Source: Afipia sp.
GTDB taxonomy: Bacteria; Pseudomonadota; Alphaproteobacteria; Rhizobiales; Xanthobacteraceae
Assembly (NCBI GenBank): GCA_016201045.1
Contig: JACQDM010000002.1
Coordinates: 124,001 to 188,000 of the forward strand
DNA length: 64,000 bases
Direction of reading: 5' to 3'
This document shows, one piece after another, positions 28,099 through 42,543 of this stretch (positions within the stretch are counted from its first letter, which is position 1; each line of letters starts with the position of its first letter). The notes below the pieces were generated by a model that saw only the letters and a program-made list of their open reading frames with translations, was not told the origin of the DNA and did not search any database. The translations under genes and the position numbers were made by a program.

Positions 28099-29898
28099 TT
28101 AGACTGGGAGGAGCGCGTCTTCGCGCTTCATATCGGTGTTTTGGGGAACTGCATCGAGAGGCAGGTCGAGCACATCCTCGAATTCGACGATGTTGTCGAT
28201 CTCGGTGCCCATCGCGATGTTGGTGACGCGTTCCAGAATGAACTCGATCACCACGGGAACGCTGTAGTCGCGAATCCATTGCCGCGCGGTCGCGAACGCT
28301 GCCTGCGCGTCTTTCGGATCGGTGACACGGATCGCCTTGCAGCCGAGACCCTCGGCCACCGCGACGTGATCGACGCCGTACACACCGATCTCCGGCGCGT
28401 TGATGTTTTCGAACGACAATTGCACGTGATAGTCCATCTCGAAGCCGCGCTGTGCCTGACGGATCAGGCCCAAATATGAGTTGTTCACGACCACGTGGAT
28501 GTACGGCAGCTTGAATTGCGCACCGACCGCCAATTCCTCGATCAAAAACTGGAAATCGTAGTCGCCCGACAGCGCGACGATCTCACGCTTGGGATCGGCA
28601 GCGCGGACGCCGAGCGCGGCGGGCAGCGTCCAGCCGAGCGGCCCCGCTTGTCCCGCGTTGATCCAGTTGCGCGGCTTGTAGACATTCAGAAACTGCGCGC
28701 CGGCGATCTGCGAAAGTCCGATCACACTGACGTAACAGGTGTCGCGGCCGAATGCCTTGCTCATCTCCTCGTAAACGCGCTGCGGCTTGATCGGCACGTT
28801 GTCGAAATGACTCTTGCGCAGCATCGTGCGCTTGCGATCCTGGCACGCAGCCGGCCATGACTGGCGCTCCTTCAACCGGCCCGCCTTGCGCCATTCCTTG
28901 GCGACGTTGACGAACAGTTCGAGCGCGGCCTTCGCATCCGAGACGATTCCGAAATCGGGGTTGAACACGCGGCCGATCTGCGTCGGCTCGATGTCGACGT
29001 GAACGAACTTGCGGCCCTTGGTATAGGTCTCGATCGAACCTGTGTGGCGGTTGGCCCAGCGGTTGCCGATGCCGAGCACGAAATCCGAGTCGAGCATGTT
29101 GGCGTTGCCGTAGCGGTGGCTGGTCTGCAATCCGACCATGCCCGCCATCAGCACGTGATCGTCGGGGATCGCGCCCCATCCCATTAGTGTCGGCACGACC
29201 GGCACGTTGAGAATTTCGGCGAACTGCACGAGCAGATGCGAGGCGTCGGCATTGATGACGCCGCCGCCCGCAACGATCAGCGGACGCTCCGAAGCGTTCA
29301 GTATCTCCATCGCCTTTTCGATCTGGCGGCGCGTTGCTGCGGGTTTGTAAACCGGAAGCGGCTCGTAGGTGGTTTCGTCGAATTCGATTTCGGCGAGTTG
29401 CACGTCGAGCGGCAGATCGATCAGCACCGGACCCGGACGGCCCGAGCGCATCACGTGAAACGCCTGACTGAACACGCGCGGCACCAATGCAGGTTCGCGC
29501 ACGGTGACGGCCCATTTGGTTACCGGCTTCGCTATCGATTCAATATCGACCGCCTGAAAGTCCTCTTTATAGAGGCGTGCGCGGGGTGCTTGCCCCGTGA
29601 TGCAAAGAATTGGAACGGAGTCTGCAATCGCCGAGTAAAGCCCCGTAATCATGTCGGTGCCGGCGGGACCGGACGTGCCGATGCAAACGCCGATGTTTCC
29701 GGCCTTCGCGCGCGTATAGCCTTCCGCCATGTGGGATGCGCCTTCGACATGGCGCGCGAGGATGTGGCTGATCGAGCCGCGTTTTTTCAGCGCTGAGTAG
29801 AGCGGGTTGATCGCCGCGCCCGGTACGCCGAAAGCGGTCGTGACACCTTCCTTTTCGAGAATCCGCACCGCGGCATCGATCGCGCGCATCTTGGCCAT
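28099..29898 (-). CDS. gcl: Glyoxylate carboligase (tartronate-semialdehyde synthase)
   Basis: Gcl condenses two glyoxylates to tartronate semialdehyde and CO2 using ThDP and FAD. The 599-residue product matches E. coli Gcl over its length, from [18 protein letters not shown] through [35 protein letters not shown] and [20 protein letters not shown] to the ThDP motif [19 protein letters not shown]. As in known Gcl, the usual ThDP-activating glutamate is absent at the [10 protein letters not shown] position. AAAGGATG precedes the ATG at 29898; the longer frame is not needed. Neighbouring hyi, glxR and glycerate kinase are missing here, so the downstream steps must be encoded elsewhere. Confidence 0.95.
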
Positions 29899-29998: not shown

Positions 29999-30925
29999 TC
30001 AGTGCGGCGGCGACTGGCTGCGTGCGGCGTCCCACCATTCACCCTCGAAGCGCGGCAGAAGAAAGCGGATGAATGCGCTGACTTTCTCAGGCACCAGTTT
30101 CGGCGACGGAAACACCGCATGCAGTTCCTGTTGCGGCAGAATGTAGTCGTCGAGGATCGAAACGACGCGTCTGTCTTTCAACGAGGCCGACGCGACATAG
30201 AGCGGCAGGATCGCAATGCCTTGGCTCAGATGAACGGCGGAAAGCACTGTCGAAAGATTGTTCGAGCGCAATCGTCCGTTGGCGATGATGACGTGGTTTT
30301 TGCCTTCGCGTGATCGCAACTGCCATACCGCATCGCCCTGCACGCTGGAATACACGATGCAGTCGTGATCGTTGAGGTCTTCGGGTATCTGCGGCGTGCC
30401 CTGTTCGGCAAGGTATGAAGGCGAGGCGACCATCACCCATGGATTCGAGCCGATGTAGCGGCCACCCAACGATGAGTCCGCTAGGCGCCCCATGCGCAGC
30501 GCGATGTCGATGCCGCGCGACACGAGATCGACGTAAGCATCCTCGCAGGTAACGTCGATCTTCAGTTGCGGGTGTTCGCGCATGAAATCGATCAGGATCG
30601 GCGAGATGATGCGGCGTCCGAACGCGACTGACGTTGAGACGCGCAGCGTCCCCGATAGTCCTTCGCTGCGATGGCCGACGAGGGCACCGGCGTCATCGAC
30701 CTCTTTGAGGATGACTTTGCAGCGCTCGTAATAAAGTCCGCCGGCCTCAGTCAGGCTGACGCCGCGGGTGTTGCGGTTGAGCAACCGCGCGCCGAGATGC
30801 TGTTCGAGCCAGCCGATCTGCTTGGTTGCGGTGGATTGCGACACCGTCAGGTCATCGGCGGCTTTGGAAAAGCTGCCGAGTTCGACCACGCGGGTGAAAA
30901 TGCGGATGCCTGTGAGATGATCCAT
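29999..30925 (-). CDS. LysR-family transcriptional regulator
   Basis: The 308-residue protein has an N-terminal winged helix (RVVELGSFSKAADDLTVSQSTATKQIGWLEQHLGARLLNRNTRGVSLTEAG) and a PBP2-type effector domain of the CrgA/YafC group (SEGLSGTLRVSTSVAFGRRIISP). It is in line with gcl, 100 bp upstream, and may be transcribed with it or act on it. The terminator of the acyl-CoA synthetase gene lies just upstream. Effector unknown. Confidence 0.88.
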   Translation of the reverse strand: MDHLTGIRIFTRVVELGSFSKAADDLTVSQSTATKQIGWLEQHLGARLLNRNTRGVSLTEAGGLYYERCKVILKEVDDAGALVGHRSEGLSGTLRVSTSVAFGRRIISPILIDFMREHPQLKIDVTCEDAYVDLVSRGIDIALRMGRLADSSLGGRYIGSNPWVMVASPSYLAEQGTPQIPEDLNDHDCIVYSSVQGDAVWQLRSREGKNHVIIANGRLRSNNLSTVLSAVHLSQGIAILPLYVASASLKDRRVVSILDDYILPQQELHAVFPSPKLVPEKVSAFIRFLLPRFEGEWWDAARSQSPPH

Positions 30926-31008: not shown

Positions 31009-33138
31009 TTAAAGCAGGCCCGCGCCGCGCGCCCACTTGTATTTCGCGCCGAGCACTTCGACCGGAATTTCTGTCGAGTAGGCGTAGGCCGGAATGCCGT
31101 TCTGATAGAGATATTCAGCGGCCTCCTCGACTTCGATGTCGCCTGCGAGAGACGCGACGATCGGCTTCTCGATGCCTTTCGCCTTCATCTCGTTCTTGAC
31201 CTCGACCATGTTCTTGGCGAACACCATCGGCGGCGTGACGATCGTGTGCCAGTAACCGAGGATCAGCGAGTGGATGCGCTCGTCCGAAAGGCCGAGCTTC
31301 ACCGTGTTGATATAGGTGATCGGCGGTTCGCCGCCGGTAATGTCGACCGGGTTGCCGGCCGCACCGAACGGCGGAATGAACTTGCGGAACGCGGCATCGA
31401 GGTCCGGCGGCATCGCCATCAGCGACAGGCCGTTGTCGACAACTGCGTCCGAAAGCAGCACGCCCGATCCGCCCGCGCCCGTAATGATGAGCACGTTCTC
31501 GCCCTTCGGCGTCGGCAGCACAGGGATGCCGCGCGCGAATTCGAGAAGCTGACGGAGCGAGCGGGCACGAATGACGCCCGACTGTGCAAGGACGTCTTCG
31601 TAAATCTTGTCGTTACCGGCGAGCGCGCCGGTGTGCGACGACGCAGCCTTCGCGCCGGCCGAGGTGCGGCCCGCTTTCAGAACGACGACCGGCTTCTTCT
31701 TGGAGACGCGCTTGGCGGCTTCCGCGAAGGCACGGCCGTCTTTCAGATCTTCACAGTGCTGCGCGATGATCGTGGTGTTCGGGTCCTGCTCGAAGAATGC
31801 CAGCAGATCGTCCTCGTCGATGTCCGACTTGTTGCCGAGACCGACGATGGCGGAGACGCCCATCTTCGCCGAGCGTGAGAAGCCGATGATCGCCATGCCG
31901 ATGCCGCCGGACTGCGACGACAGCGCGGCGTGACCCTTCACATCGTAGGCCGTGCAGAACGTCGCGCAGAGGTTCGACCACGTGTAGTAGAAGCCGTAGA
32001 TGTTCGGGCCCATCAGGCGGATGTTGTGCTTCAATCCGACCTTGACGATTTCTTCCTGCAGTTCAGGCGCGCCGGCTTCGGCGAAGCCCGACGGAATGAG
32101 AACCGCGCCCGGAATTTTCTTCTCGCCGCACTCTTCGAGTGCGCCCGCAACGAACTTCGCAGGGATCGCGAACACGGCGACATCGATCACGCCCGGAACG
32201 TCCTTGACGCTCTTGTAGGCCTTGCGGCCCAGGATTTCGTCCGCCTTCGGATGGATTGGATAGATTTCGCCTTTATATCCGCCGTTGATGAGGTTTTTCA
32301 TCACGGAGTTGCCGATCTTGCCGTCTTCAGACGACGCGCCGATCACGGCGACCGATTTCGGCATCATGATGCGGTTCATCGCTTTTACGATTTCGTCGTT
32401 CGAGCGCGGAGCCGGGCGCGGCTTGTAGTTGAAGTCGACGACGATGCGCACGTCGGCGGCAATCGCGTCTTTCTTTGTTGCGAATACCGGATTGAGGTCG
32501 AGTTCGACGATTTCGGGGAAATCCGTGACGAGCTGCGAGACTTTCACAATGACGTCGGCCAGCGCGTCGCGGTTCACCGGATCGCCGCCGCGCACGCCGT
32601 GCAGCATTTCCTTGGCCTGGATGCCGTCGAGCATCGACAGTGCATCGGCTTTGGTCGCGGGAGCAAGACGGAAGGTCACGTCCTTGAGCACTTCGACGAG
32701 TACGCCGCCGAGGCCGAACGCGACCAGCTTGCCGAACGAATTGTCGGTGATGGAGCCGACGATCACCTCGGTGCCGCCCATCAACATCTGCTGGATCTGC
32801 ACGCCTTCGATCTTGGCGTCGGCTTTATATTTCTTCGCGTTGGCGAGAATCTGGTCGTAGGCCTTCTGCGCGCCGTCGGCGTCTTTCACGCCGACCATCA
32901 CGCCACCGGCTTCGGTCTTGTGGAGAATGTCCGGCGAGACGATCTTCATCACCACCGGGAAGCCCATGCCGCCCGCGAGCTTTGCGGCATCTGCGGCGGA
33001 CTTGGCGAGGCCCTCTTTCGGGACCGGAATTCCGTAGGCGTCGCAGACGATCTTGCCTTCCGGCGCCGTCAGACTGTTGCGTTTGTCCGCCTTGACGGCG
33101 TCCAAAATCTTGCGAACTTCAGTTTTGGCCTGCGACAT
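31009..33138 (-). CDS. ADP-forming acyl-CoA synthetase family protein, oxalate-locus associated
   Basis: The 709-residue protein belongs to the NDP-forming acyl-CoA synthetase superfamily but with the ATP-grasp domain first (LTAPEGKIVCDAYGIPVPKEG, PVVMKIVSPDILHKTEAGGV, residues about 10-225). A CoA-binding domain (KSVAVIGASSEDGKIGNSVMKNL, about 250-345) and succinyl-CoA-ligase-like domains (SQSGGIGMAI; phospho-His candidate in SSHTGALAGND) follow. The usual GPNCLG loop reads GPNIYG. It is divergent from the GntR regulator over a region with operator repeats. Oxalate activation to oxalyl-CoA, or ATP recovery from formyl-CoA, are both conceivable; substrate unproven. GGGAGAGAG precedes the ATG. 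Confidence 0.82.
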   Translation of the reverse strand: MSQAKTEVRKILDAVKADKRNSLTAPEGKIVCDAYGIPVPKEGLAKSAADAAKLAGGMGFPVVMKIVSPDILHKTEAGGVMVGVKDADGAQKAYDQILANAKKYKADAKIEGVQIQQMLMGGTEVIVGSITDNSFGKLVAFGLGGVLVEVLKDVTFRLAPATKADALSMLDGIQAKEMLHGVRGGDPVNRDALADVIVKVSQLVTDFPEIVELDLNPVFATKKDAIAADVRIVVDFNYKPRPAPRSNDEIVKAMNRIMMPKSVAVIGASSEDGKIGNSVMKNLINGGYKGEIYPIHPKADEILGRKAYKSVKDVPGVIDVAVFAIPAKFVAGALEECGEKKIPGAVLIPSGFAEAGAPELQEEIVKVGLKHNIRLMGPNIYGFYYTWSNLCATFCTAYDVKGHAALSSQSGGIGMAIIGFSRSAKMGVSAIVGLGNKSDIDEDDLLAFFEQDPNTTIIAQHCEDLKDGRAFAEAAKRVSKKKPVVVLKAGRTSAGAKAASSHTGALAGNDKIYEDVLAQSGVIRARSLRQLLEFARGIPVLPTPKGENVLIITGAGGSGVLLSDAVVDNGLSLMAMPPDLDAAFRKFIPPFGAAGNPVDITGGEPPITYINTVKLGLSDERIHSLILGYWHTIVTPPMVFAKNMVEVKNEMKAKGIEKPIVASLAGDIEVEEAAEYLYQNGIPAYAYSTEIPVEVLGAKYKWARGAGLL

Positions 33139-33172
33139 CGTCTCTCTCCCTAACGTCTTCTTGCGAGGATTT

Positions 33173-33191
33173 TTGGCATTTGGTATGCCAA
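33173..33191. promoter_or_regulatory. Putative GntR operator 1 (acyl-CoA synthetase promoter side)
   Basis: TTGGCAT-N5-ATGCCAA inverted repeat, with an embedded TTGGTATGCCAA palindrome, 35 bp from the acyl-CoA synthetase start. It continues into AGAAC, shared with operator 2. Confidence 0.7.
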
Positions 33192-33253
33192 GAACATTGT
33201 TGTCAAGCGTGTTCCACAGCCGCAATGCAGCATGAGGTCCGATCCTTGACACT

Positions 33254-33272
33254 TTGGCATTTGGCATGCCAA
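33254..33272. promoter_or_regulatory. Putative GntR operator 2 (GntR promoter side)
   Basis: TTGGCAT-N5-ATGCCAA, differing from operator 1 at a single base over the 19-bp core and followed by the same AGAAC. It lies 57 bp before the GntR start. A half-site TGGTATAAC follows at 33294-33302. Confidence 0.7.
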
Positions 33273-33328
33273 GAACCTGAGATTGCGCCCTCGTGGTATA
33301 ACTGAATCCCCACAGAGGCGAGGGAATC

Positions 33329-34069
33329 ATGGCGGCACAGAAAACAACCAAGGCAGCGGCAACGGTAGGCGGCGACTCCGATCTCGCCATCGTCCGTATC
33401 GCGCCTGAAACGAGTTTCAAGAATAAAGCGTATGAAGCGCTCAAGGATGCCATCCTGAAGATGGACATCTATACGACGCAAGACCCCGTGATGCTCGACG
33501 AGCGCGCGCTGTCGGAGCGTCTCGGTGTGTCGCGCACGCCGATCCGTGAAGCCATAGCGATGCTTGAGCAGGACGGCTTCGTCAAAACCGTGCCGCGCCG
33601 TGGCATCAGCGTTGTGCGAAAGACGAAGGCGGAAATCGTCGACATGATCCGCGCATGGGCCGCGCTCGAAAGCATGGCCGCGCGACTGATCACGACGACC
33701 GCGCGCAAGAAAGACATCACGGCGCTGCGCGATTTCTTCAAGAACTTCAATAAGGATCGTCTTCCGCAGGATCACCGCGTCGAGTACTCGAAAGCCAACA
33801 TCGCGTTTCATCAGGCGCTGATCGGGCTCAGCGAGTCGCCGACGCTGATTGAAATGACCAACGATATACTTCTGCATGTGCGCGGCTTCCGCCAGCTCAC
33901 CATCGGGCGCACGGATCGCACCGCCGCCTCGCTGCCTGAACATCTTGCAATCATCGAAGCGCTGGAAGAACGCGATACTGAACTGGCCGAGAAGCGCGCA
34001 CGCGATCACACGCTGGGCCTTGCGACCTATGTTGAAACACACGGCCAGGAACTTTTTACGGCGACGTAA
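33329..34069 (+). CDS. GntR-family (FCD/FadR subfamily) regulator of the oxalate locus
   Basis: The 246-residue regulator has a winged helix with LDERALSERLGVSRTPIREAIAMLEQDGFVKTVPRRGISVV and an all-helical FCD ligand domain (AALESMAARLI; metal-ligand histidines likely in NIAFHQALIG, LPEHLAIIEAL and ARDHTLG). The position between the acyl-CoA synthetase and oxc-frc, with paired palindromes in its promoter, points to local control. FCD ligands are often small carboxylates, so oxalate, oxalyl-CoA or glyoxylate are candidates. GAGGG precedes the ATG; oxc follows 47 bp downstream and is probably in the same transcript. Confidence 0.88.
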   Translation: MAAQKTTKAAATVGGDSDLAIVRIAPETSFKNKAYEALKDAILKMDIYTTQDPVMLDERALSERLGVSRTPIREAIAMLEQDGFVKTVPRRGISVVRKTKAEIVDMIRAWAALESMAARLITTTARKKDITALRDFFKNFNKDRLPQDHRVEYSKANIAFHQALIGLSESPTLIEMTNDILLHVRGFRQLTIGRTDRTAASLPEHLAIIEALEERDTELAEKRARDHTLGLATYVETHGQELFTAT

Positions 34070-34116
34070 ATCGAACGACGAAACGACAAGCATAAAAAAT
34101 ATCAGGGAGAAGCGGT

Positions 34117-35850
34117 ATGTCCGCAGTAGTTCAGAGCATCAATCCGGCAGCCGAAGAAGAATTGACGGATGGCTTCCATCTGATCATCGACGCGCTCAAG
34201 CTCAACGGCCTCAACACGATCTATGGCGTGCCCGGAATTCCGATCACGGATTTCGGCCGCATGGCGCAGGCGGAAGGCATCCGCGTGCTGTCGTTCCGTC
34301 ACGAGCAGGCCGCGGGTTACGCCGCTTCCATCGCGGGCTTCCTCACCAAAAAACCGGGCGTGTGTCTGACGGTTTCCGCGCCGGGCTTCCTCAATGGCCT
34401 CACCGCGCTCGCTCACGCGACCACGAACTGCTTCCCGATGATTCTGATTTCCGGCTCGTCGGAGCGCGAGATCGTCGACCTGCAGCAGGGCGACTACGAA
34501 GAAATGGACCAGCTCGCGATCGCCAAGCCTCTGTGTAAGGCGGCGTTCCGTGTTCTTCATGCGCAGGACATCGGCATCGGCCTCGCACGCGCGATCCGCG
34601 CGGCGGTTTCGGGCCGTCCCGGCGGCGTCTATCTCGATCTTCCGGCGAAACTGTTCGGCCAGGTGATGAACGCAGAAGCCGGCAAGAAGTCGCTGGTGAA
34701 AGTCATCGACGCTGCACCGGCGCAAATTCCCGCGCCGGATTCAGTGAAGCGTGCGCTCGACGTGCTCAAGAGCGCCAAGAAGCCGCTGATCATTCTCGGC
34801 AAGGGCGCGGCTTACGCGCAGGCCGACGAGGCGATCAAGAATTTCGTCGAGAAGAGCGGCGTTCCGTTCCTCCCCATGAGCATGGGCAAGGGCCTGCTGC
34901 CGGACACGCATCCGCAATGCGCGGGTGCTGCGCGCTCGACCGTCCTGAAAGACTCCGACGTCGTCATGTTGATTGGCGCTCGTCTGAACTGGCTGTTGTC
35001 GCACGGCAAGGGCAAGACGTGGGGCGACGCGCCGAAGAAGTTCATCCAAATTGATATTGAACCTCGCGAAATGGATTCGAACGTCGAGATCGTGGCACCT
35101 GTGGTCGGCGATATCGGCTCGTGTGTGACTGCGATGCTGAATGCAATGGGCAATAGCTGGAGCGCGCCATCGGCCGACTGGACAAAGGCCGTTCAGACCA
35201 AGCGCGACGACAACGTCGCAAAAATGGCGCCGAAGCTGATGAACAACAACTCGCCGATGGATTATCACGGCGCGCTCGGTGTTCTCCGCACCATCGTCAA
35301 GGAGCGCCCCGACGCGATCCTCGTCAACGAAGGTGCCAACACGCTCGACCTCGCGCGCGGCATTATCGACATGTACAAGCCGCGCAAGCGCATCGATGTC
35401 GGCACCTGGGGCATCATGGGTATCGGAATGGGCTACTGCATCGCCGCCGCCGTCGAAACCGGCAAGCCCGTGCTCGCGGTTGAAGGCGACTCGGCATTTG
35501 GTTTTTCGGGAATGGAGGTCGAAACGATCTGCCGTTACAACCTGCCGGTTTGCGTCGTCGTCTTTAATAACGATGGCATCTATCGCGGCACCGACGTCAA
35601 TCCGACGGGTGGCGCGGACGTTGCGCCGACGGTGTTCGTCAAGGGCGCGCGCTACGACAAGATGATGGAGGCTTTCGGCGGCGTTGGCGTCAATGCGACT
35701 TCGCCGGACGAGTTGAAGCGTGCCGTGAATGCTGCAATGGATTCCGGCAAGCCGACGCTCATCAACGCGGTTCTGGATCCGGCCGCAGGAAGCGAAAGCG
35801 GCCGCATCGGCAACCTCAATCCGCAAAGTGCTTTGAAGAAAAAGAAGTAA
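34117..35850 (+). CDS. oxc: Oxalyl-CoA decarboxylase
   Basis: Oxc converts oxalyl-CoA to formyl-CoA and CO2 using ThDP and is activated by ADP. The 577-residue protein has the N-terminal PYR domain ([19 protein letters not shown], catalytic glutamate Glu63 in [11 protein letters not shown]) and the C-terminal ThDP motif [19 protein letters not shown]...[12 protein letters not shown]. Length and motifs match Oxalobacter Oxc. CAGGGAGAAG precedes the ATG. It sits between the GntR regulator and frc and provides the energy-yielding decarboxylation when coupled to oxalate/formate exchange. Confidence 0.95.
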
Positions 35851-35930
35851 GTCGTCGTCCGGAGCTGGGGCACCGGGTTTGTATCATTCAACGTGGCGTC
35901 AGAGGGCGTCACTGCTATGGAGTTAAGACA

Positions 35931-37211
35931 ATGACACAGGCGCTGAAGGGCGTTCGCATTCTCGATTTCACGCACGTCCAGTCGGGACCAACCTGCACGC
36001 AGTTGCTGGCCTGGTTCGGCGCGGACGTCATCAAGGTCGAACGTCCAGGCGTCGGCGATATTACGCGTGGCCAGCTGATCGACGTTCCGAACGCCGACAG
36101 CCTCTATTTCACGATGCTGAACCACAACAAGCGCTCGATCACGCTCGACACCAAGAACCCGAAGGGCAAGGAAGTCCTCACCGCGCTTATCAAGAAGTGC
36201 GACGTGCTGGTGGAGAATTTCGGTCCCGGCGTGCTCGATCGCATGGGCTTTCCGTGGGAAACGATCCAGAAGATCAACCCGAAGCTGATCGTCGCTTCGA
36301 TCAAGGGTTTCGGTCCCGGTCCATATGAGGACTGCAAGGTTTACGAGAACGTCGCGCAGTGCACCGGCGGCTCGGCATCGACCACCGGCTTCCGCGACGG
36401 CCTACCGCTCGTGACCGGCGCGCAGATCGGCGACTCGGGCACCGGATTGCATCTCGCTCTTGGCATCGTCACCGCGCTTTATCACCGCACGCATTCCGGC
36501 GTCGGTCAGCGCGTTACGGTGGCGATGCAGGACGGCGTGTTGAATCTGGCGCGCGTCAAGCTGCGCGATCAGCAGCGCCTCGCGCATGGTCCGCTGAAAG
36601 AATACAGCCAGTTCGGCGAGGGCATTCCGTTCGGCGATGCTGTGCCGCGCGCAGGCAACGATTCCGGTGGCGGACAGCCGGGCCGCATTTTGAAGTGCAA
36701 GGGCTGGGAAACCGACCCGAACGCCTATCTGTATTTCATCACGCAGGCTCCCGTGTGGGAGAAGATCTGCGATGTGATCGGCGAGCCCGGCTGGAAGACC
36801 CACCCGGATTACGCCAAGCCGCCGGCGCGCCTGTCGCGTCTGAACGAAATCTTCGCGCGCATCGAACAGTGGACGATGACCAAGACCAAGTTCGAGGCGA
36901 TGGACATCCTCAACAAGGATGACATCCCGTGCGGCCCGATCCTGTCGATGAAGGAATTGGCCGAAGACCAGTCGCTGCGTGCGACCGGCACCGTCGTCGA
37001 AGTCGATCATCCCAAGCGCGGCAAATATCTGTCGGTCGGCAATCCGATCAAGCTGTCGGCGTCGCCGAGCGATGTGAAGCGTTCGCCGCTGCTTGGCGAG
37101 CACACCGACGAGATCCTCAAGCAGGTTCTCGAATTCAACGATAGCCAGGTGGCCGAGATCCATGCGTCGGGCGCGCTTACCCCGCCGCCGAAGGTTCAGG
37201 CCGCCGAATAA
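35931..37211 (+). CDS. frc: Formyl-CoA:oxalate CoA-transferase
   Basis: Frc moves CoA from formyl-CoA to oxalate, closing the oxalyl-CoA cycle with Oxc. The 426-residue class III CoA-transferase has the conserved N-terminus [34 protein letters not shown], the active-site aspartate Asp168 in [17 protein letters not shown], and a glycine loop ([16 protein letters not shown]) typical of Frc. It follows oxc by 80 bp and ends at a strong terminator, so GntR-oxc-frc form one unit. It would need a starter oxalyl-CoA, possibly from the acyl-CoA synthetase. Confidence 0.95.
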
Positions 37212-37234
37212 TCCGGCGAGTTGCAACAGCAACG

Positions 37235-37268
37235 AAAGACCGGCGGATTGTCCGCCGGTCTTTTCGTT
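37235..37268 (+). terminator. Rho-independent terminator after frc
   Basis: Stem GACCGGCGGA / TCCGCCGGTC with loop TTG (37238-37260), followed by TTTTCGTTTT. Confidence 0.9.
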
Positions 37269-37308
37269 TTCGGCGTTCATTGGGGCCGCTTGCATATGCG
37301 AGGGGACC

Positions 37309-37359
37309 CGCCACAGTCCCGCCACTCGATTCCAAGTCCGTCACCGTTTCGCCATTGCG
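37309..37359 (+). repeat. 51-bp dispersed repeat, copy 1
   Basis: It is identical at 50 of 51 positions to 63820-63870, in the same orientation; the core includes CCACTCGATTCCAAGTCCGT. It lies after the frc terminator. Read on the minus strand both copies encode NGETVTDLESSGG, but no ribosome site supports translation. Confidence 0.85.
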
Positions 37360-37473
37360 ATTTTGATAGTTGAACCAAATCGAGTTTTGGCGTTTTGATC
37401 GCAAAAGCCGATTGCGGTATCTTTGGTGCGATGCACCCAATCCTATGCTGCTATGCAAACTCGGCTGTTGTTG

Positions 37474-37490
37474 CTGGCATCTGGTATACG
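37474..37490. promoter_or_regulatory. Putative GntR operator 3 (upstream of the 45-aa gene)
   Basis: TGGCAT-C-TGGTATAC matches the layout TGGCAT-T-TGGTATGC of operator 1 at 13 of 15 positions. It lies 75 bp before the small gene. Confidence 0.6.
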
Positions 37491-37565
37491 TAAAAAGGGC
37501 TTATCGGAGATCGCGGCCGCTCTTTGCGGCTTCCTTCTCAGCATCTGATCCAGAAAGGCCCCACC

Positions 37566-37703
37566 ATGGCTCATACCGCTACCATCCGCCTTGCATCGTC
37601 CAACGGCTTGTTCGCCCGTCTTTTTGCAGCCCTCGACCGCGCTCTGCTGAGCTGGGCCAACGCTGCCATCCGCCGCGGCGATATTCCTTACTTCGGCCTG
37701 TAA
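37566..37703 (+). CDS. 45-aa protein in the oxalate locus
   Basis: The ATG with GAAAGG nine bases upstream opens a 45-residue frame that starts MAHTATIRLASSNGLFARLF and ends IRRGDIPYFGL. It has an amphipathic helix rich in Leu, Ala and Arg (LFARLFAALDRALLSWANAAIRRG), reminiscent of short DUF1127-like proteins. It is bounded by an operator-like site upstream and a hairpin downstream, which supports a separately controlled transcript. Function unknown; it may regulate RNA or a partner protein of the oxalate pathway, but this is only a guess. Confidence 0.7.
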   Translation: MAHTATIRLASSNGLFARLFAALDRALLSWANAAIRRGDIPYFGL

Positions 37704-37782
37704 TTATTGGACTTTCGTCGCAGTCGCGGTTGCGTAACCTGATACCGCGCGACGGAAGTTTGTTTCTCACAACGTTGCAGAC

Positions 37783-37815
37783 AATGGCTCCGGTCTCTGG
37801 AGCCATTTGTCGTTG
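37783..37815 (+). terminator. Probable terminator after the 45-aa gene
   Basis: Nine-base stem AATGGCTCC / GGAGCCATT with loop GGTCTCT, followed by a weak T-rich run TTGTCGTT. Confidence 0.6.
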
Positions 37816-37893
37816 AGATGCCCTGTGCGGCAGTGCAAATCGTTGGCTGCGACATTTCCGCGCGGGTCCTGCTTTTAAGTTCTCATTCCTTCC

Positions 37894-37907
37894 GTGGCAT
37901 ACCAAGA
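37894..37907. promoter_or_regulatory. Putative GntR operator 4 (upstream of first oxlT-like gene)
   Basis: TGGCATACCAAGA matches the TGGCATGCCAAGA core of operator 2 with one change. It is 51 bp before the transporter start. Confidence 0.6.
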
Positions 37908-37957
37908 TGCCTTCCAGACAGCGCTCGGCTCTACAGAAGCGCGTCAGGGGAGGTAAC

Positions 37958-39244
37958 ATGGCTACAATTCAAGCGGCTCCTGCAGCCGGACGGGTCAGCG
38001 ACACCTATCGCTGGATGCAGTTGGTCATCGGCGTCGCCGCAATGGTGATGATCGCCAACTACCAATACGGATGGACGTTCTTCGTCCCCGATATCGAAAA
38101 GAAATTCGGCTGGTCACGCACCGAGATCCAATGGGCGTTCACGCTCTTTGTTCTGTTCGAGACGTGGCTGGTTCCGGTCGAAGGCTGGTTCGTCGACAAA
38201 TACGGCCCGCGCATCGTCGTCTTATTCGGCGGCATCCTGTGCGCGATCGGGTGGGTCATCAACGCCAAGGCCGATACGCTCAGCGGCTACTATCTCGGCA
38301 TGATCGTCGCGGGCATCGGTGCCGGTGGCGTCTACGGGACCTGCGTCGGCAACGCGCTGAAGTGGTTTCCCGACAAGCGCGGTCTCGCAGCGGGCATTAC
38401 CGCAGCCGGTTTTGGTGCCGGTTCGGCACTGACGGTTGCGCCTATCCAGGCGATGATCAAGAACGACGGTTTCCAGAACACGTTCCTGTATTTCGGTCTC
38501 GGACAGGGCATCATCATCGTGATCCTCGCGTTCCTGATGTTCGCGCCGAAGCCGGGTCAGGTGCCGGCCGTCGTGCAGAATGCGAATGTCATCCAAAGCC
38601 GCCGTAACTACGGTCCGACCGAAGTGCTGCGTCAGCCGATCTTCTGGCTGATGTATTTCATGTTCGTGATCGTCGGCGCAGGCGGCCTGATGGTGACGGC
38701 CAACCTCAAGCCGATCGCACTCGACTGGAAGGTCGATGCGATTCCGGTGACGCTGATCGGCATGACCATGACGGCCGTGACGTTCGCAGCGACCATCGAT
38801 CGCGTGCTCAACGGCCTGACACGCCCGTTCTTTGGGTGGGTTTCGGACATGATCGGCCGCGAGAACACGATGTTCATCGCGTTCGGCATCGAAGGCCTCG
38901 GCATCTACGCGCTGTATCTCTACGGCCACGATCCGGTGATGTTCGTGATCCTGTCGGGTCTGGTGTTCTTCGCATGGGGTGAGATCTATTCGCTCTTCCC
39001 ATCGACCTGCACCGACACCTTCGGATCGAAGTTCGCAACCACCAATGCGGGCCTGCTCTACACCGCCAAGGGTACGGCAGCGCTGCTCGTGCCGCTTGCG
39101 AACTATATCCAGCAGACCTCCAAGACGTGGGACACGGTGTTCCTCGTGGCGGCGGGTGCCAACATCCTCGCCTCGCTGCTTGCGATCGCGGTGTTGAAGC
39201 CCTGGCGCAAGCAGGTCGTCGCGAAGGCGGTCGCGTCGTCTTAG
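37958..39244 (+). CDS. Oxalate:formate antiporter (OFA-family MFS), paralogue 1
   Basis: The 428-residue transporter has twelve membrane helices and OFA features: YQYGWTFFVPDIEKKFGWSRTEIQWAFTLFVLFETW in the first two helices, GIGAGGVYGTCVGNALKWFPDKRGLAAGITAAGFGAGSA and FFAWGEIYSLFPSTCTDTFGSKFATTNAGLLYTAKG with a lysine in helix 11, the position of the oxalate-binding lysine of OxlT. It would bring in oxalate in exchange for formate. GGGGAGG precedes the ATG. The frame opens earlier at 37907, but that start has no ribosome site. Confidence 0.92.
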   Translation: MATIQAAPAAGRVSDTYRWMQLVIGVAAMVMIANYQYGWTFFVPDIEKKFGWSRTEIQWAFTLFVLFETWLVPVEGWFVDKYGPRIVVLFGGILCAIGWVINAKADTLSGYYLGMIVAGIGAGGVYGTCVGNALKWFPDKRGLAAGITAAGFGAGSALTVAPIQAMIKNDGFQNTFLYFGLGQGIIIVILAFLMFAPKPGQVPAVVQNANVIQSRRNYGPTEVLRQPIFWLMYFMFVIVGAGGLMVTANLKPIALDWKVDAIPVTLIGMTMTAVTFAATIDRVLNGLTRPFFGWVSDMIGRENTMFIAFGIEGLGIYALYLYGHDPVMFVILSGLVFFAWGEIYSLFPSTCTDTFGSKFATTNAGLLYTAKGTAALLVPLANYIQQTSKTWDTVFLVAAGANILASLLAIAVLKPWRKQVVAKAVASS

Positions 39245-39280
39245 TCAAAGCGCTTCGCGTTCGCAGCGAAGCTCACATCA

Positions 39281-39315
39281 GCGCGCTCAACCCTCGGGTT
39301 GGGCGCGTTTTTGTT
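39281..39315 (+). terminator. Rho-independent terminator after first transporter
   Basis: GCGC-CTCAACCC pairs with GGGTTGGGCGCG across the tight loop TC(G), then TTTTTG. Confidence 0.7.
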
Positions 39316-39432
39316 GGCTCGATCATTTTAGAGCAAGGGTTGGCGCGAAGAAATTGCCGCGCTGCAAAACGACTTTGTTCCGAAGAAAAAATGAAGCGAT
39401 AGACGAACGGCGTGCTTGCTTCGTGGAATATC

Positions 39433-39483
39433 TTATACCAGTGTCCCCTTGACGCTTGCGGCAATTGGTCACAGCCTTGTGAC
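39433..39483. promoter_or_regulatory. Control sites upstream of second oxlT-like gene
   Basis: Half-site TTATACCA (39433-39440) is the reverse complement of TGGTATAA seen at other operators. A separate inverted repeat GTCACA-GCCT-TGTGAC (39468-39483) lies 36 bp before the start codon and resembles a CRP/FNR-type symmetric site. Confidence 0.4.
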
Positions 39484-39518
39484 AATTTGCCACAACAAGA
39501 AGCGCACTGGGAGAGAAC

Positions 39519-40823
39519 ATGAGCACAGCATCGAAAGCCGCAGGCAGCCCGTCCGTATCGGACGGCTTCCGTTGGACGCAACTGATCGTCGGCGTCATTT
39601 GCATGGCGATGATCGCAAACCTTCAATATGGCTGGACCTACTTCGTCGGCCCGATGGCGAAAGCCAATTCGTGGGACGTTGCGGGAATCCAGGTCGCATT
39701 CAGCATCTTTGTCGCGCTCGAAACGTGGCTCACTCCGCTCGAGGGCTGGATCGTCGACTCGCTCGGACCGCGCGGTCCGAAACTTATGGTGGCGGCGGGC
39801 GGCGTCTTCGTTGCGATCGGCTGGCTTATCAACGCCAAGGCGACATCGCTTGAAATGCTCTATTTGGGCGCAGTGATCTCCGGCATTGGCGCGGGCGGAA
39901 TTTATGCAACCTGCGTCGGCAACGCCGTGAAGTGGTTTCCGGATCGCCGCGGTCTTGCCGTCGGTCTGACGGCAGCGGGCTTCGGAGCCGGTGCCGCGGT
40001 CACCGTCATACCGATCCAGAAAATGATCGAGTCGATTGGCTACGCCGATACGTTCTTCTGGTTCGCGATCGGGCAGGGCGCGGTCATCTTCGTGCTTGCA
40101 TGGCTGTTGCGTCCGCCGGTTGCCGGCGAGGTGCCCACCGGCTCCGCCGTGAAGGTGCTTCAGTCGAAGACCAGCAGCACGCCTGGCCAGATGTTGAAGT
40201 CGCCAGTGTTCTGGCTGCTGTATGCGATGTTCGTTCTGGTCTCGGCCAGCGGCCTCATGGTGGCAGCGCAGATTGCGCTGATTGCAAAGGACTACGGCGT
40301 CGCATCGACGGTCGTCCTGTTCGGCGCAACCACGCTTATCGTGTCGGGCGTAATCGACAACCTTGCCAACGGCGGCGCGCGTCCGTTCTTCGGCTGGGTG
40401 TCCGACCAGATCGGCCGAGAGTTCACGATGGCAATCGCGTTCACTGCGGGCGGCATCGCGTACTGGTTGCTCGGAAATTTCGGGACGACACCGTGGACCT
40501 TCGTGATCTGCGCCGCGCTCATCTTCTTCACCTGGGGTGAGATTTTCAGCCTGTTTCCGTCAACCTGCACGGACATGTTCGGTCCGAAATACGCGACCAC
40601 CAATACGAGCCTGCTCTATACGGCAAAAGGTCTTTCCGCCTTCGTGGTCCCCCTCGCGAACGTGTTGAAGACCTATACCGGCAACTGGCATGCGGTGTTC
40701 ATCGCCGCCGCGATTATGAACTTCGCCGTCGTTTTGATGGCGCTGTTCATCGTGCGGCCGATGCGCATTTCGATCAGCAAGTCGGAAGATACCAGAGGCG
40801 CGATCGGCCAGGCGGCCGAGTAA
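39519..40823 (+). CDS. Oxalate:formate antiporter (OFA-family MFS), paralogue 2
   Basis: The 434-residue transporter is clearly paralogous to the preceding one: NLQYGWTYFVGPMAKANSWDVAGIQVAFSIFVALETWLTPLEGW, GIGAGGIYATCVGNAVKWFPDRRGLAVGLTAAGFGAG, and FTWGEIFSLFPSTCTDMFGPKYATTNTSLLYTAKGLSAF with the helix-11 lysine kept. Tandem duplication followed by divergence is likely. It has its own promoter region and terminator, so the two may serve different conditions or one may take a different dicarboxylate. GGGAGA precedes the ATG. Confidence 0.9.
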   Translation: MSTASKAAGSPSVSDGFRWTQLIVGVICMAMIANLQYGWTYFVGPMAKANSWDVAGIQVAFSIFVALETWLTPLEGWIVDSLGPRGPKLMVAAGGVFVAIGWLINAKATSLEMLYLGAVISGIGAGGIYATCVGNAVKWFPDRRGLAVGLTAAGFGAGAAVTVIPIQKMIESIGYADTFFWFAIGQGAVIFVLAWLLRPPVAGEVPTGSAVKVLQSKTSSTPGQMLKSPVFWLLYAMFVLVSASGLMVAAQIALIAKDYGVASTVVLFGATTLIVSGVIDNLANGGARPFFGWVSDQIGREFTMAIAFTAGGIAYWLLGNFGTTPWTFVICAALIFFTWGEIFSLFPSTCTDMFGPKYATTNTSLLYTAKGLSAFVVPLANVLKTYTGNWHAVFIAAAIMNFAVVLMALFIVRPMRISISKSEDTRGAIGQAAE

Positions 40824-40851
40824 GCGTCCCAACTTGATCGATGAAAGATCG

Positions 40852-40882
40852 AAAGGGCGCACCTCGGTGCGCCCTTTTTGTT
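40852..40882 (+). terminator. Rho-independent terminator after second transporter
   Basis: AAAGGGCGCAC pairs with GTGCGCCCTTT around CTCG, followed by TTGTTTT. Confidence 0.9.
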
Positions 40883-40981
40883 TTGCAGCTCCGCATTTCA
40901 GCAACGTTGGAATTGCAAAGGTCAGCGGTACTGACCCTCACGCCAAATAATTTGTCTGCAAGCGAACACCGCCGTTGACAG

Positions 40982-41000
40982 TTGGTATAATGTATACCAA
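40982..41000. promoter_or_regulatory. Perfect palindrome, putative GntR operator 5 (upstream of CBS gene)
   Basis: TTGGTATA-ATG-TATACCAA: eight-base perfect arms with a three-base spacer, 34 bp before the CBS gene. The centre contains TATAAT, and a TTGACA lies directly before it, so it may sit inside a promoter. Confidence 0.65.
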
Positions 41001-41034: not shown

Positions 41035-41451
41035 ATGAAAGTCGAAGATATCCTGCGCGGAAAAGGTACGAAGATCGCAACGGTCCGCATGAACGAGACC
41101 GTGGAGACAGCGTCCAAGCTGCTGCGATCGGAAAACACCAGCGCTCTCGTCGTGAAGGATGTGTGCCGGACCGAAGGAAATGTCGTCGTCGGAATGTTCT
41201 CCGAGCGCGATGTCGTGCGCGCGGTGGCCGAGCACGGTGCCAAGGCTTCGGCAGTGAAGATCTCCTCGCTCATCTCTGTACAGAGGCTGATCTCGTGCTC
41301 GCAGTCCGACAGCATCGAGCATGTTAGCCAACTCATGCGCGACAATCACATCAGGCATTTGCCTGTTCTCGAAGACGGACGGCTTGTCGGCGTCATCAGC
41401 ATCCGCGACCTCGTGGTTGCACACGAGACGCACGAGCCAGCGCACGCCTAG
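41035..41451 (+). CDS. CBS-domain pair protein
   Basis: The 138-residue protein consists of two CBS domains (about 1-62 and 70-132; DILRGKGTKIATVRMNETVETASKLL, VVGMFSERDVVRAVAEHG, MRDNHIRHLPVLEDGRLVGVISIRDLV). Such stand-alone pairs bind adenine nucleotides and often sense energy status. TAGGGAGG precedes the ATG. The operator-like palindrome in its promoter ties it to the oxalate regulon, possibly to tune metabolism to ADP or AMP, which would fit the ADP dependence of Oxc. That link is speculative. Confidence 0.85.
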   Translation: MKVEDILRGKGTKIATVRMNETVETASKLLRSENTSALVVKDVCRTEGNVVVGMFSERDVVRAVAEHGAKASAVKISSLISVQRLISCSQSDSIEHVSQLMRDNHIRHLPVLEDGRLVGVISIRDLVVAHETHEPAHA

Positions 41452-41562: not shown

Positions 41563-42543
41563 ATGAAGATTTGTATCTACGGAGCCGGAGCTATCGGCGG
41601 CTATCTCGCAGTTCAGCTTGCGCAAGCAGGCGCGGAAGTAAGTCTCGTCGCCCGCGGGCCGCATCTGGCCGCGATGAAGGAAAGGGGCCTTAAGCTCCTG
41701 ATCGGCGACGAAGAGCGCGTTATCAAGCCCAACTGCACCGACAATCCCGCCGATCTCGGCGTGCAGGATGTCGTCATCGTCTGCCTTAAAGCACATTCGA
41801 TCACCGGCGTTATCGAGCAGATGAAGCCGCTGCTCGGTTCGCACACGCGCATTGTCACAGCGGTCAACGGCATTCCCTATTGGTATTTCTACAAGCACGG
41901 CGGCAACGAGTTCGAGGGCAAAACTCTGGAGAGTATCGATCCCGGCGGCCGCCAATGGAACGAACTTGGCGCAGAGCGTGCCATCGGCTGCATCGTCTAT
42001 CCGGCGACGGAAATCGAAGCGCCCGGCGTTATCAAGCACGTCTATGGCGACCGCTTTCCGCTCGGCGAACCCTCGGGCGAGAAGTCATCCGACGTCGAGG
42101 GTCTGTCGGCGATGTTCACCAAGGCGGGCCTTCAGGCTCCGGTGCTGGATCGCATTCGCGACGAAATCTGGCTGAAGCTGTGGGGTAACGTTTCCTTCAA
42201 CCCGATCAGCGCGCTGACCCACGCAACACTGGATGTTTTGTGCAGCGATCCCGGCACAAAGGCCGTCACGCGTTCGATGATGGTGGAAGCGCAGCAGATC
42301 GCCGAAACCTTCGGCGTGAAATTCCGCGTCGATGTCGACCGCCGCATCGAAGGCGGCCGCAAGGTCGGTGCTCACAAGACGTCGATGCTTCAGGATTTAG
42401 AACGCGGCCGGCCGATGGAAATCGATCCGTTGGTGACGGTGGTTCAGGAAATGGGCCGCATGACGCAAATCCCGACGCCGACCATCGACACGGTATTGGC
42501 GCTGACGATCCAACGCGCGAAGGTTGCAGGGCTTTATTCTTAG
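41563..42543 (+). CDS. 2-dehydropantoate 2-reductase (ketopantoate reductase) family protein
   Basis: The 326-residue NADP-dependent reductase has the Rossmann motif KICIYGAGAIGGYLAVQLAQAGAEV, catalytic lysine candidates in VIVCLKAHSI and IWLKLWGNVSFNPISALT, and the family tail KTSMLQDLERGRPMEIDPL. It could be PanE for pantothenate synthesis. Being at the end of an oxalate locus, it could also reduce a 2-oxo acid such as tartronate semialdehyde or glyoxylate; the sequence cannot decide. The ATG at 41563 gives the canonical start; an ATG at 41539 is also in frame. Its stop overlaps the next, convergent gene. Confidence 0.82.
   Translation: MKICIYGAGAIGGYLAVQLAQAGAEVSLVARGPHLAAMKERGLKLLIGDEERVIKPNCTDNPADLGVQDVVIVCLKAHSITGVIEQMKPLLGSHTRIVTAVNGIPYWYFYKHGGNEFEGKTLESIDPGGRQWNELGAERAIGCIVYPATEIEAPGVIKHVYGDRFPLGEPSGEKSSDVEGLSAMFTKAGLQAPVLDRIRDEIWLKLWGNVSFNPISALTHATLDVLCSDPGTKAVTRSMMVEAQQIAETFGVKFRVDVDRRIEGGRKVGAHKTSMLQDLERGRPMEIDPLVTVVQEMGRMTQIPTPTIDTVLALTIQRAKVAGLYS

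Follow-up and report, generated by a model that had tools for sequence, protein, structure and literature searches.

An autoregulated repressor of the FCD (FadR-type) GntR subfamily acting at a palindromic operator is a well-known kind of regulator. NanR of Escherichia coli is an FCD-type GntR repressor with an N-terminal extension before its helix-turn-helix and an operator described as (GGTATA)3 (PMC8012715). In the alphaproteobacterium Paracoccus denitrificans, GlcR is a GntR-family repressor of C2-acid catabolism that controls glycolate oxidase and is placed within the FadR subfamily alongside the clades of GlcC, PdhR and LldR (PMC11323563). The E. coli yfdXWUVE genes, with homologues of oxc and frc, are likewise controlled through inverted repeats, but by EvgA, the response regulator of a two-component system linked to acid stress (PMC3720670). 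The present analysis concerns a 19-bp inverted repeat, TTGG(C/T)AT-N5-AT(A/G)CCAA, that recurs in an oxalate gene cluster of Afipia sp. The cluster lies in a stretch of 64,000 nucleotides (contig JACQDM010000002.1, positions 124,001 to 188,000; G000:C4:124001-188000), here called the window, of a genome of 3,612,112 bases in 10 contigs. Very probably the repeats serve as operators for a GntR protein of the FCD type, whose gene lies within the cluster at 33329-34069 and which would act as an autoregulated repressor; its binding, its repression, its ligand and the part that SucCD plays in metabolism are what we infer from the sequence.

The protein resembles NanR in its architecture, including the N-terminal extension before the helix-turn-helix, and the half-site TGG(C/T)AT resembles GGTATA, three half-sites being present at part of the promoters here (NanR as described in PMC8012715). 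Unlike NanR, with its three direct repeats, this system combines half-sites inverted across N5 with a direct repeat across N1, and the genes are different. The NCBIfam NanR model NF003011 gives 60.3 bits, below its cut-off of 260. GlcR shares with the present protein its family, an alphaproteobacterial host and a putative role as repressor of C2-acid catabolism, but not its target genes. Searches of open papers, a set that lacks most subscription papers, revealed no GntR protein in control of an oxalate regulon, and within that limit the regulon, the mixed inverted–direct operator and the link to sucCD appear to be new.

The sites in the window, and the putative -35 boxes beside them, are:

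33173..33191: operator 1, TTGGCATTTGGTATGCCAA, acs-proximal, three half-sites, perfect match
33201..33206, minus strand: putative -35 box of acs, TTGACA, in a conserved block adjoining operator 1
33246..33251, plus strand: putative -35 box of gntR, TTGACA, conserved in 80/80 related loci
33254..33272: operator 2, TTGGCATTTGGCATGCCAA, gntR-proximal, three half-sites, perfect match
37474..37492: operator 3, CTGGCATCTGGTATACGTA, upstream of the open reading frame (ORF) for a 45-amino-acid (45-aa) protein, degenerate, 9/12 fixed letters
37894..37911: non-canonical site, core TGGCATACCA, upstream of transporter 1, N6 partner, uncertain
39423..39441: operator 4, GTGGAATATCTTATACCAG, upstream of transporter 2, 10/12 fixed letters
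40975..40980, plus strand: putative -35 box of the CBS gene, TTGACA
40982..41000: operator 5, TTGGTATAATGTATACCAA, upstream of the CBS gene, perfect match

The genes, called with Pfam and NCBIfam models, are:

31009..33138, minus strand: acs, ADP-forming acyl-coenzyme A (CoA) synthetase-like (PF13549, PF13380, PF13607, PF19045), divergent from gntR
33329..34069, plus strand: gntR, GntR-family regulator with FCD domain, the proposed binder
34117..35850, plus strand: oxc, oxalyl-CoA decarboxylase (TIGR03254, 1031 bits, cut-off 739)
35931..37211, plus strand: frc, formyl-CoA transferase, Frc equivalog (TIGR03253, 734 bits, cut-off 504)
37566..37703, plus strand: 45-aa small protein, conserved ORF
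37958..39244, plus strand: major facilitator superfamily (MFS) transporter 1, oxalate/formate antiporter-like (TIGR04259, 654 bits, cut-off 335)
39519..40823, plus strand: MFS transporter 2, oxalate/formate antiporter-like (TIGR04259, 526 bits, cut-off 335)
41035..41451, plus strand: CBS-domain protein (PF00571, two stretches)
41563..42543, plus strand: PanE/ApbA-like reductase, panE (PF02558, PF08546), without an operator of its own

Membership of the oxalate pathway is indicated by Oxc and Frc, both of which exceed the cut-offs of their equivalog models, and both transporters can putatively be regarded as OxlT-like from their sequences.

The only perfect copies of TTGGNAT-N5-ATNCCAA in the whole genome are those at 33173, 33254 and 40982. 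The degenerate pattern YTGGHAT-N5-ATRCCAR, with no mismatch, has four forward sites in that genome (the same three and C1:674013) and none when reversed. Once a mismatch is allowed, ten forward sites face seven with the reversed control, so relaxed matches alone prove nothing and only strict or conserved sites were counted. Over 80 related loci (1.49 Mb; the best 80 of 121 GntR relatives in genome_contigs, mostly Afipia and Bradyrhizobium records), the full motif gives 344 sites with at least 10 of its 12 fixed letters, against 6 for the reversed motif. Spacing is narrowly set in these loci: the inverted TGGYAT-N5-ATRCCA occurs 245 times, none of the remaining spacings between 0 and 20 being met more than twice, and the direct TGGYAT-N1-TGGYAT occurs 210 times and other direct spacings at most 6. 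The short core TGGTATACCA was discarded as the motif, since its two-mismatch matches in the window number 7, no real excess over the 4.8 expected by chance.

The initial annotation, which reported related palindromic sites in non-coding gaps, had made their significance depend on conservation in related genomes, and conserved they are: in the acs–gntR gap both operators are kept in all 80 loci, typically 81 bp apart. In an alignment of 81 such gaps, window included, operators 1 and 2 have 92% and 87% identity to the window, against 42% for the remaining gap. The sequences and positions originally given were found as described, all between called genes, but the sites are not of equal standing. 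Those at 33173, 33254 and 40982 are perfect; those at 37474 and 39433 (the right half of operator 4) are degenerate with equivalents in relatives. The site at 37894 is doubtful, having no N5 repeat, though one related locus (L007) shares its core as TGGTATACCA and two others (L006 and L009) have a canonical operator there. The palindrome at 33294 (TGGTATAAC), with 57% mean identity over the same 81 gaps, is not conserved and was rejected as an operator of the same kind.

Upstream sites were scored at 10 or more of 12 fixed letters within 200 bp of a gene, dropping rows whose alignment began after residue 15, whose identity was below 45% or whose upstream stretch was shorter than 150 bases. Such a site precedes gntR in 80/80 loci, acs in 76/79, transporter 1-like genes in 37/41, transporter 2 in 5/5 (at -80 to -97) and the CBS gene in 28/28. 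Genes internal to the operons have none (oxc 0/80, frc 0/77, tctB 0/38, tctA 0/38, panE 0/8, sucD 0/4), nor does the reversed motif reach this score in any gene class. The 45-aa ORF has a site in 11/32 loci, or 31/32 at 9 or more letters, with the best match at -64 to -87 in 20 of the 32 and elsewhere in 12; a sucC copy found within the cluster, where readable in named loci, has one in 3/11, or 10/11 at 9 or more. A score of 9/12 is weak by itself: at this cut a site precedes tctA in 10/38 loci, and the reversed motif is matched in 12/79 loci at acs and in 11/80 at gntR.

Sites of this kind also lie at genes outside the cluster:

G000:C1:674013-674031 (L002 3014): off-locus operator, 66 bp upstream of housekeeping sucC in the window's own genome
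G000:C4:438285-439994 (L188, L310): operon for formate dehydrogenase, with a weak site upstream; Fdh-alpha comes after a NuoEF-type subunit

Thus, the ‘oxalate regulon’ of the initial annotation stands as a conserved operator common to the oxalate cluster with its FCD-GntR gene, but the name is too narrow, since sucCD and the formate dehydrogenase operon share the operator. The genes at the first of these sites are SucC (577 bits, cut-off 370) and SucD (459 bits, cut-off 336) by NCBIfam; a malate-CoA ligase identity was rejected, the beta model giving 493 bits under a cut-off of 604. Eighteen Bradyrhizobium genomes picked from the 80 loci carry 3–7 strict forward sites each and no reversed pattern, and in all 18 housekeeping sucCD is preceded, at -68 to -79, by an operator scoring 10/12 or more (18/19 by copy, the exception being a second copy in G068). 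Among sucCD copies fetched from relatives the operator is present in only 2/30 (the window's own genome and G023, at -66); for 12 of the 28 copies lacking it, the genome also carries a second sucC, 78–81% identical. In four genomes of other families, chosen for a strict site near sucC, the site lies at -65 to -105. The 20 off-locus strict sites retrieved from the Bradyrhizobium genomes include 14 that precede sucCD and 4, in four genomes, about 1.1 kb before gcl.

Fdh-alpha of the formate dehydrogenase operon (L310 3495-6260, behind the NuoEF-type subunit) scores 730 bits against TIGR01591, with a cut-off of 666. A site of at least 10/12 precedes this operon in 11/24 relatives. Fifteen of the 18 Bradyrhizobium genomes have the operon, the remaining three giving no match, and the site scores at least 11/12 in 9 of the 15 and 8–9/12 in the other 6. 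The site in the window's own genome, GTTGCATCTGGCATGCCAT, is weak (9/12 at -63), as are those of L187 and L199 (9/12, at -63 and -67); in many relatives a strong operator occupies roughly the same position. From the counts over relatives for this operon and for gcl, the six weakest of 30 loci each, being 33–45% identical paralogues, were left out.

The arrangement of half-sites differs between promoters. A third half-site fills the spacer of the operators of acs, gntR, the 45-aa ORF and housekeeping sucCD, and most transporter and CBS operators have two half-sites only. The gntR operator has an exact TTGACA starting 8 bp ahead of it in 80/80 loci; for the acs operator the distance is 15–16 bp (73/78 loci, acs strand) and for the CBS operator 7 bp (22/28). 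At in-cluster sucC, a TTGACA with at most one mismatch lies 25–30 bp ahead of the operator in 10/10. The fixed distance at gntR, acs and CBS fits repression by occlusion of the promoter, and operator placement relative to the -35 box thus suggests that the protein is a repressor.

That the initial annotation was right to place an FCD-GntR regulator within the cluster is confirmed by matches to both the winged-helix domain PF00392 (46.5 bits, cut-off 27) and the FCD effector domain PF07729, which put the protein in the FCD (FadR-type) subfamily. A palindromic operator at the regulator's own promoter, a trait of that subfamily, is present in sequence as the two operators of the acs–gntR gap. The predicted structure has the FCD fold, with a mean predicted local distance difference test score (pLDDT) of 79 and residues 1–27 below 50. 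Its nearest solved structures are PmiR (Pseudomonas aeruginosa, PDB 7xp0/7xp1), a Brucella GntR protein, TM0439 and McbR, with VanR (Atu1419, 6za3) lower; PmiR and VanR are likened by fold only, which shows no function. In 110 aligned rows, which include the window and a few genes twice, SRTPxREA in the DNA-binding domain is invariant. The metal-binding FCD group has the ligand set Asp-x3-His, His, His. Here the Asp four residues ahead of the first His is replaced by Asn157 in 110/110 rows, and His161 is constant. Homologue names are generic among the best 120 of 7986.

Across 61 genomes, grouped without matching for genome size or base composition, 29 have a GntR orthologue of at least 56% identity (the window's own included), and all 29 have strict sites, with a mean of 3.8. 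The one genome of the same genus without the orthologue (G015) has none; the reversed pattern is present in 5/61. More distant orthologues (46–53%) have oxc, frc or transporter genes as neighbours. A non-coding site is present at 7/13 such loci; in one of them, L156, operators lie upstream of both gntR and sucCD. The adjacent FCD-type GntR is on this sequence comparison the likely binder of the operators. In a sister group of loci (L208-L217 with L135-L147), a 56–59% identical GntR gene directly follows sucCD, and operators lie before gcl and at oxalate genes.

Several results weigh against an autoregulated repressor, whether in its mode of action or in its link to the sites. As to the first, the transporter and 45-aa ORF operators of related loci have no TTGACA at a fixed distance, the transporter 2 operator lies upstream of a conserved TTGACG-like box, which need not mean repression, and a consensus scan for sigma-70-like promoters returned none. 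The first two features would suit the same GntR protein acting mainly as an activator, or in a dual manner according to promoter, in the way of GlcC of E. coli, described as a FadR-subfamily activator (PMC11323563). However, at gntR, acs and CBS the operator follows closely on the -35 box, a position from which a bound protein should block transcription, and a mainly activating or dual role is unlikely.

As to the link with the sites, strict sites occur in only 4/13 genomes with a 46–53% orthologue and in 5/19 without any, so the association is weak outside the close group; 6/13 of the distant loci lack a non-coding site at 10/12, two of the 20 off-locus Bradyrhizobium sites belong to none of sucCD, gcl and the formate dehydrogenase operon, and the 80 loci, being the best of 121, are close kin (GntR identity 83–96%). 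It could be argued that some other regulator reads the sites, such as a second FCD protein or a LysR protein. The genome has two further weak matches to the GntR protein, and a LysR gene (29999-30925) adjoins acs. Yet a LysR protein of at least 60% identity was matched in L007 only among the 80 loci (several contigs end too early to tell), sites persist at the 7 of 13 distant loci noted above, to which GntR had led, and the N5 spacing is accompanied by the SRTPxREA motif; the presence of GntR in 80/80 loci is itself an effect of the query. Another reader of these sites thus seems very improbable.

Still less credible is that the palindromes act in RNA, as hairpins or attenuators: one scan does list 33170-33194 as terminator-like, but the position of the repeats is fixed with respect to the -35 box at gntR, acs and CBS, where much of the repeat would be left untranscribed. 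Chance or low complexity, to which the short core in the window and the one-mismatch matches in its genome, neither clearly above control, might seem to point, can be dismissed in the face of the conservation, the N5 spacing, the uniqueness of the perfect sites and the reversed-motif controls.

If the GntR protein is a repressor, its action can be pictured as follows. As a dimer, by analogy with its fold relatives, it would bind TGG(C/T)AT half-sites whose centres are 12 bp apart, with the third half-site occupying the spacer at the acs, gntR, 45-aa ORF and sucCD promoters. At gntR, acs and CBS, where the operator begins 7–16 bp after the start of TTGACA, bound GntR would block RNA polymerase. 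Accumulation of oxalate or one of its products would provide an intracellular ligand (candidates are oxalyl-CoA, formyl-CoA, oxalate and glyoxylate) that releases GntR. Release would then induce uptake (the OxlT-like transporters, and Tct in relatives), activation (Frc, SucCD and acs), decarboxylation (Oxc) and formate oxidation. The likely reason for the membership of sucCD is a loss of some oxalyl-CoA from the Frc–Oxc cycle, which would call for an additional CoA donor.

The sucCD operator fits a role for succinyl-CoA as CoA donor in oxalate activation. Succinyl-CoA is reported to be able to replace formyl-CoA in this reaction (PMC12188714), and an operator on sucCD would be a genetic sign of that replacement. 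A report on YfdE and UctC gives no product from succinyl-CoA and oxalate (PMC3720670); neither is Frc, and the result speaks against assuming that every such transferase uses succinyl-CoA. More speculatively, and with the odds rather against it, the repressor may couple SucCD of the tricarboxylic acid cycle to oxalate: succinyl-CoA, together with an acyl-CoA made by acs (perhaps oxalyl-CoA or formyl-CoA), would prime activation; the FCD pocket, with Asn in place of the metal-binding Asp, would sense a CoA thioester; and the operator would have moved to an in-cluster second sucCD, leaving the housekeeping copy.

Oxalate use is a known Bradyrhizobium trait (PMC12188714), and the operator defines, by sequence, a regulon for it in Bradyrhizobium and Afipia. 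The regulon gains the formate dehydrogenase operon, the conserved 45-aa protein and the ADP-forming acyl-CoA synthetase, and control of sucCD by an oxalate regulator is an unexpected link that the operator makes testable. On arabinose, Frc, Oxc, Gcl and the NuoF-like blr2316 of B. diazoefficiens are reported to reach higher levels or to be detected on that substrate alone, with no difference for Oxc in the membrane fraction (PMC5996035). This agrees with co-regulation, the correspondence of blr2316 to the formate dehydrogenase operon being putative.

Of the cluster genes, acs falls under the cut-off of every listed NCBIfam model and may be a CoA ligase for oxalyl, formyl or other acyl groups; it is divergent from gntR in related loci also. 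The 45-aa protein has no match in Pfam or NCBIfam. Its ORF has 45 codons up to the stop in 36/36 copies (window included) and ATG at the aligned start in 35 of the 36, with a median ratio of non-synonymous to synonymous differences (pN/pS) of 0.49 over 596 pairs. It is found in oxalate loci, often downstream of its own operator, and its C-terminal end is mostly NGDxPxFGL.

Just past the LysR gene lies a further gene of interest:

28135..29898: homologue of gcl, the glyoxylate carboligase gene of the sister group

As a regulon member in the window's own group gcl was rejected, the own copy having no site and the count being 0/14 across L218-L231, which comprise G045 and 13 members of the genus with the own copy among them; in the sister group with 56–59% identical GntR, gcl has a site in 8/10. 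The TctCBA transporter operon (Pfam) was not found in the window's cluster. In relatives, tctC has a site in 1/35 cases within 200 bp and in 23/39 within 420 bp (-187 to -411; reversed motif 0). In most site-bearing relatives about 290–410 bases separate the operator from the start (L024 14453-14760 and equivalents), and this unusually long leader may hold another element.

Elsewhere in the window's genome, C1:605790 was rejected as an off-locus operator because it falls inside an ORF. A near-operator, TTGGTATAATGTATGTCAG, lies at C1:1115736-1115754 (L003 3237) upstream of a SnoaL_2-domain gene, 3/9 orthologues of which (own included) have a 10/12 site at -106 to -112. In L174, a glycerate-kinase-like gene (DUF4147, MOFRL; under NCBIfam cut-offs) has a site near its start.

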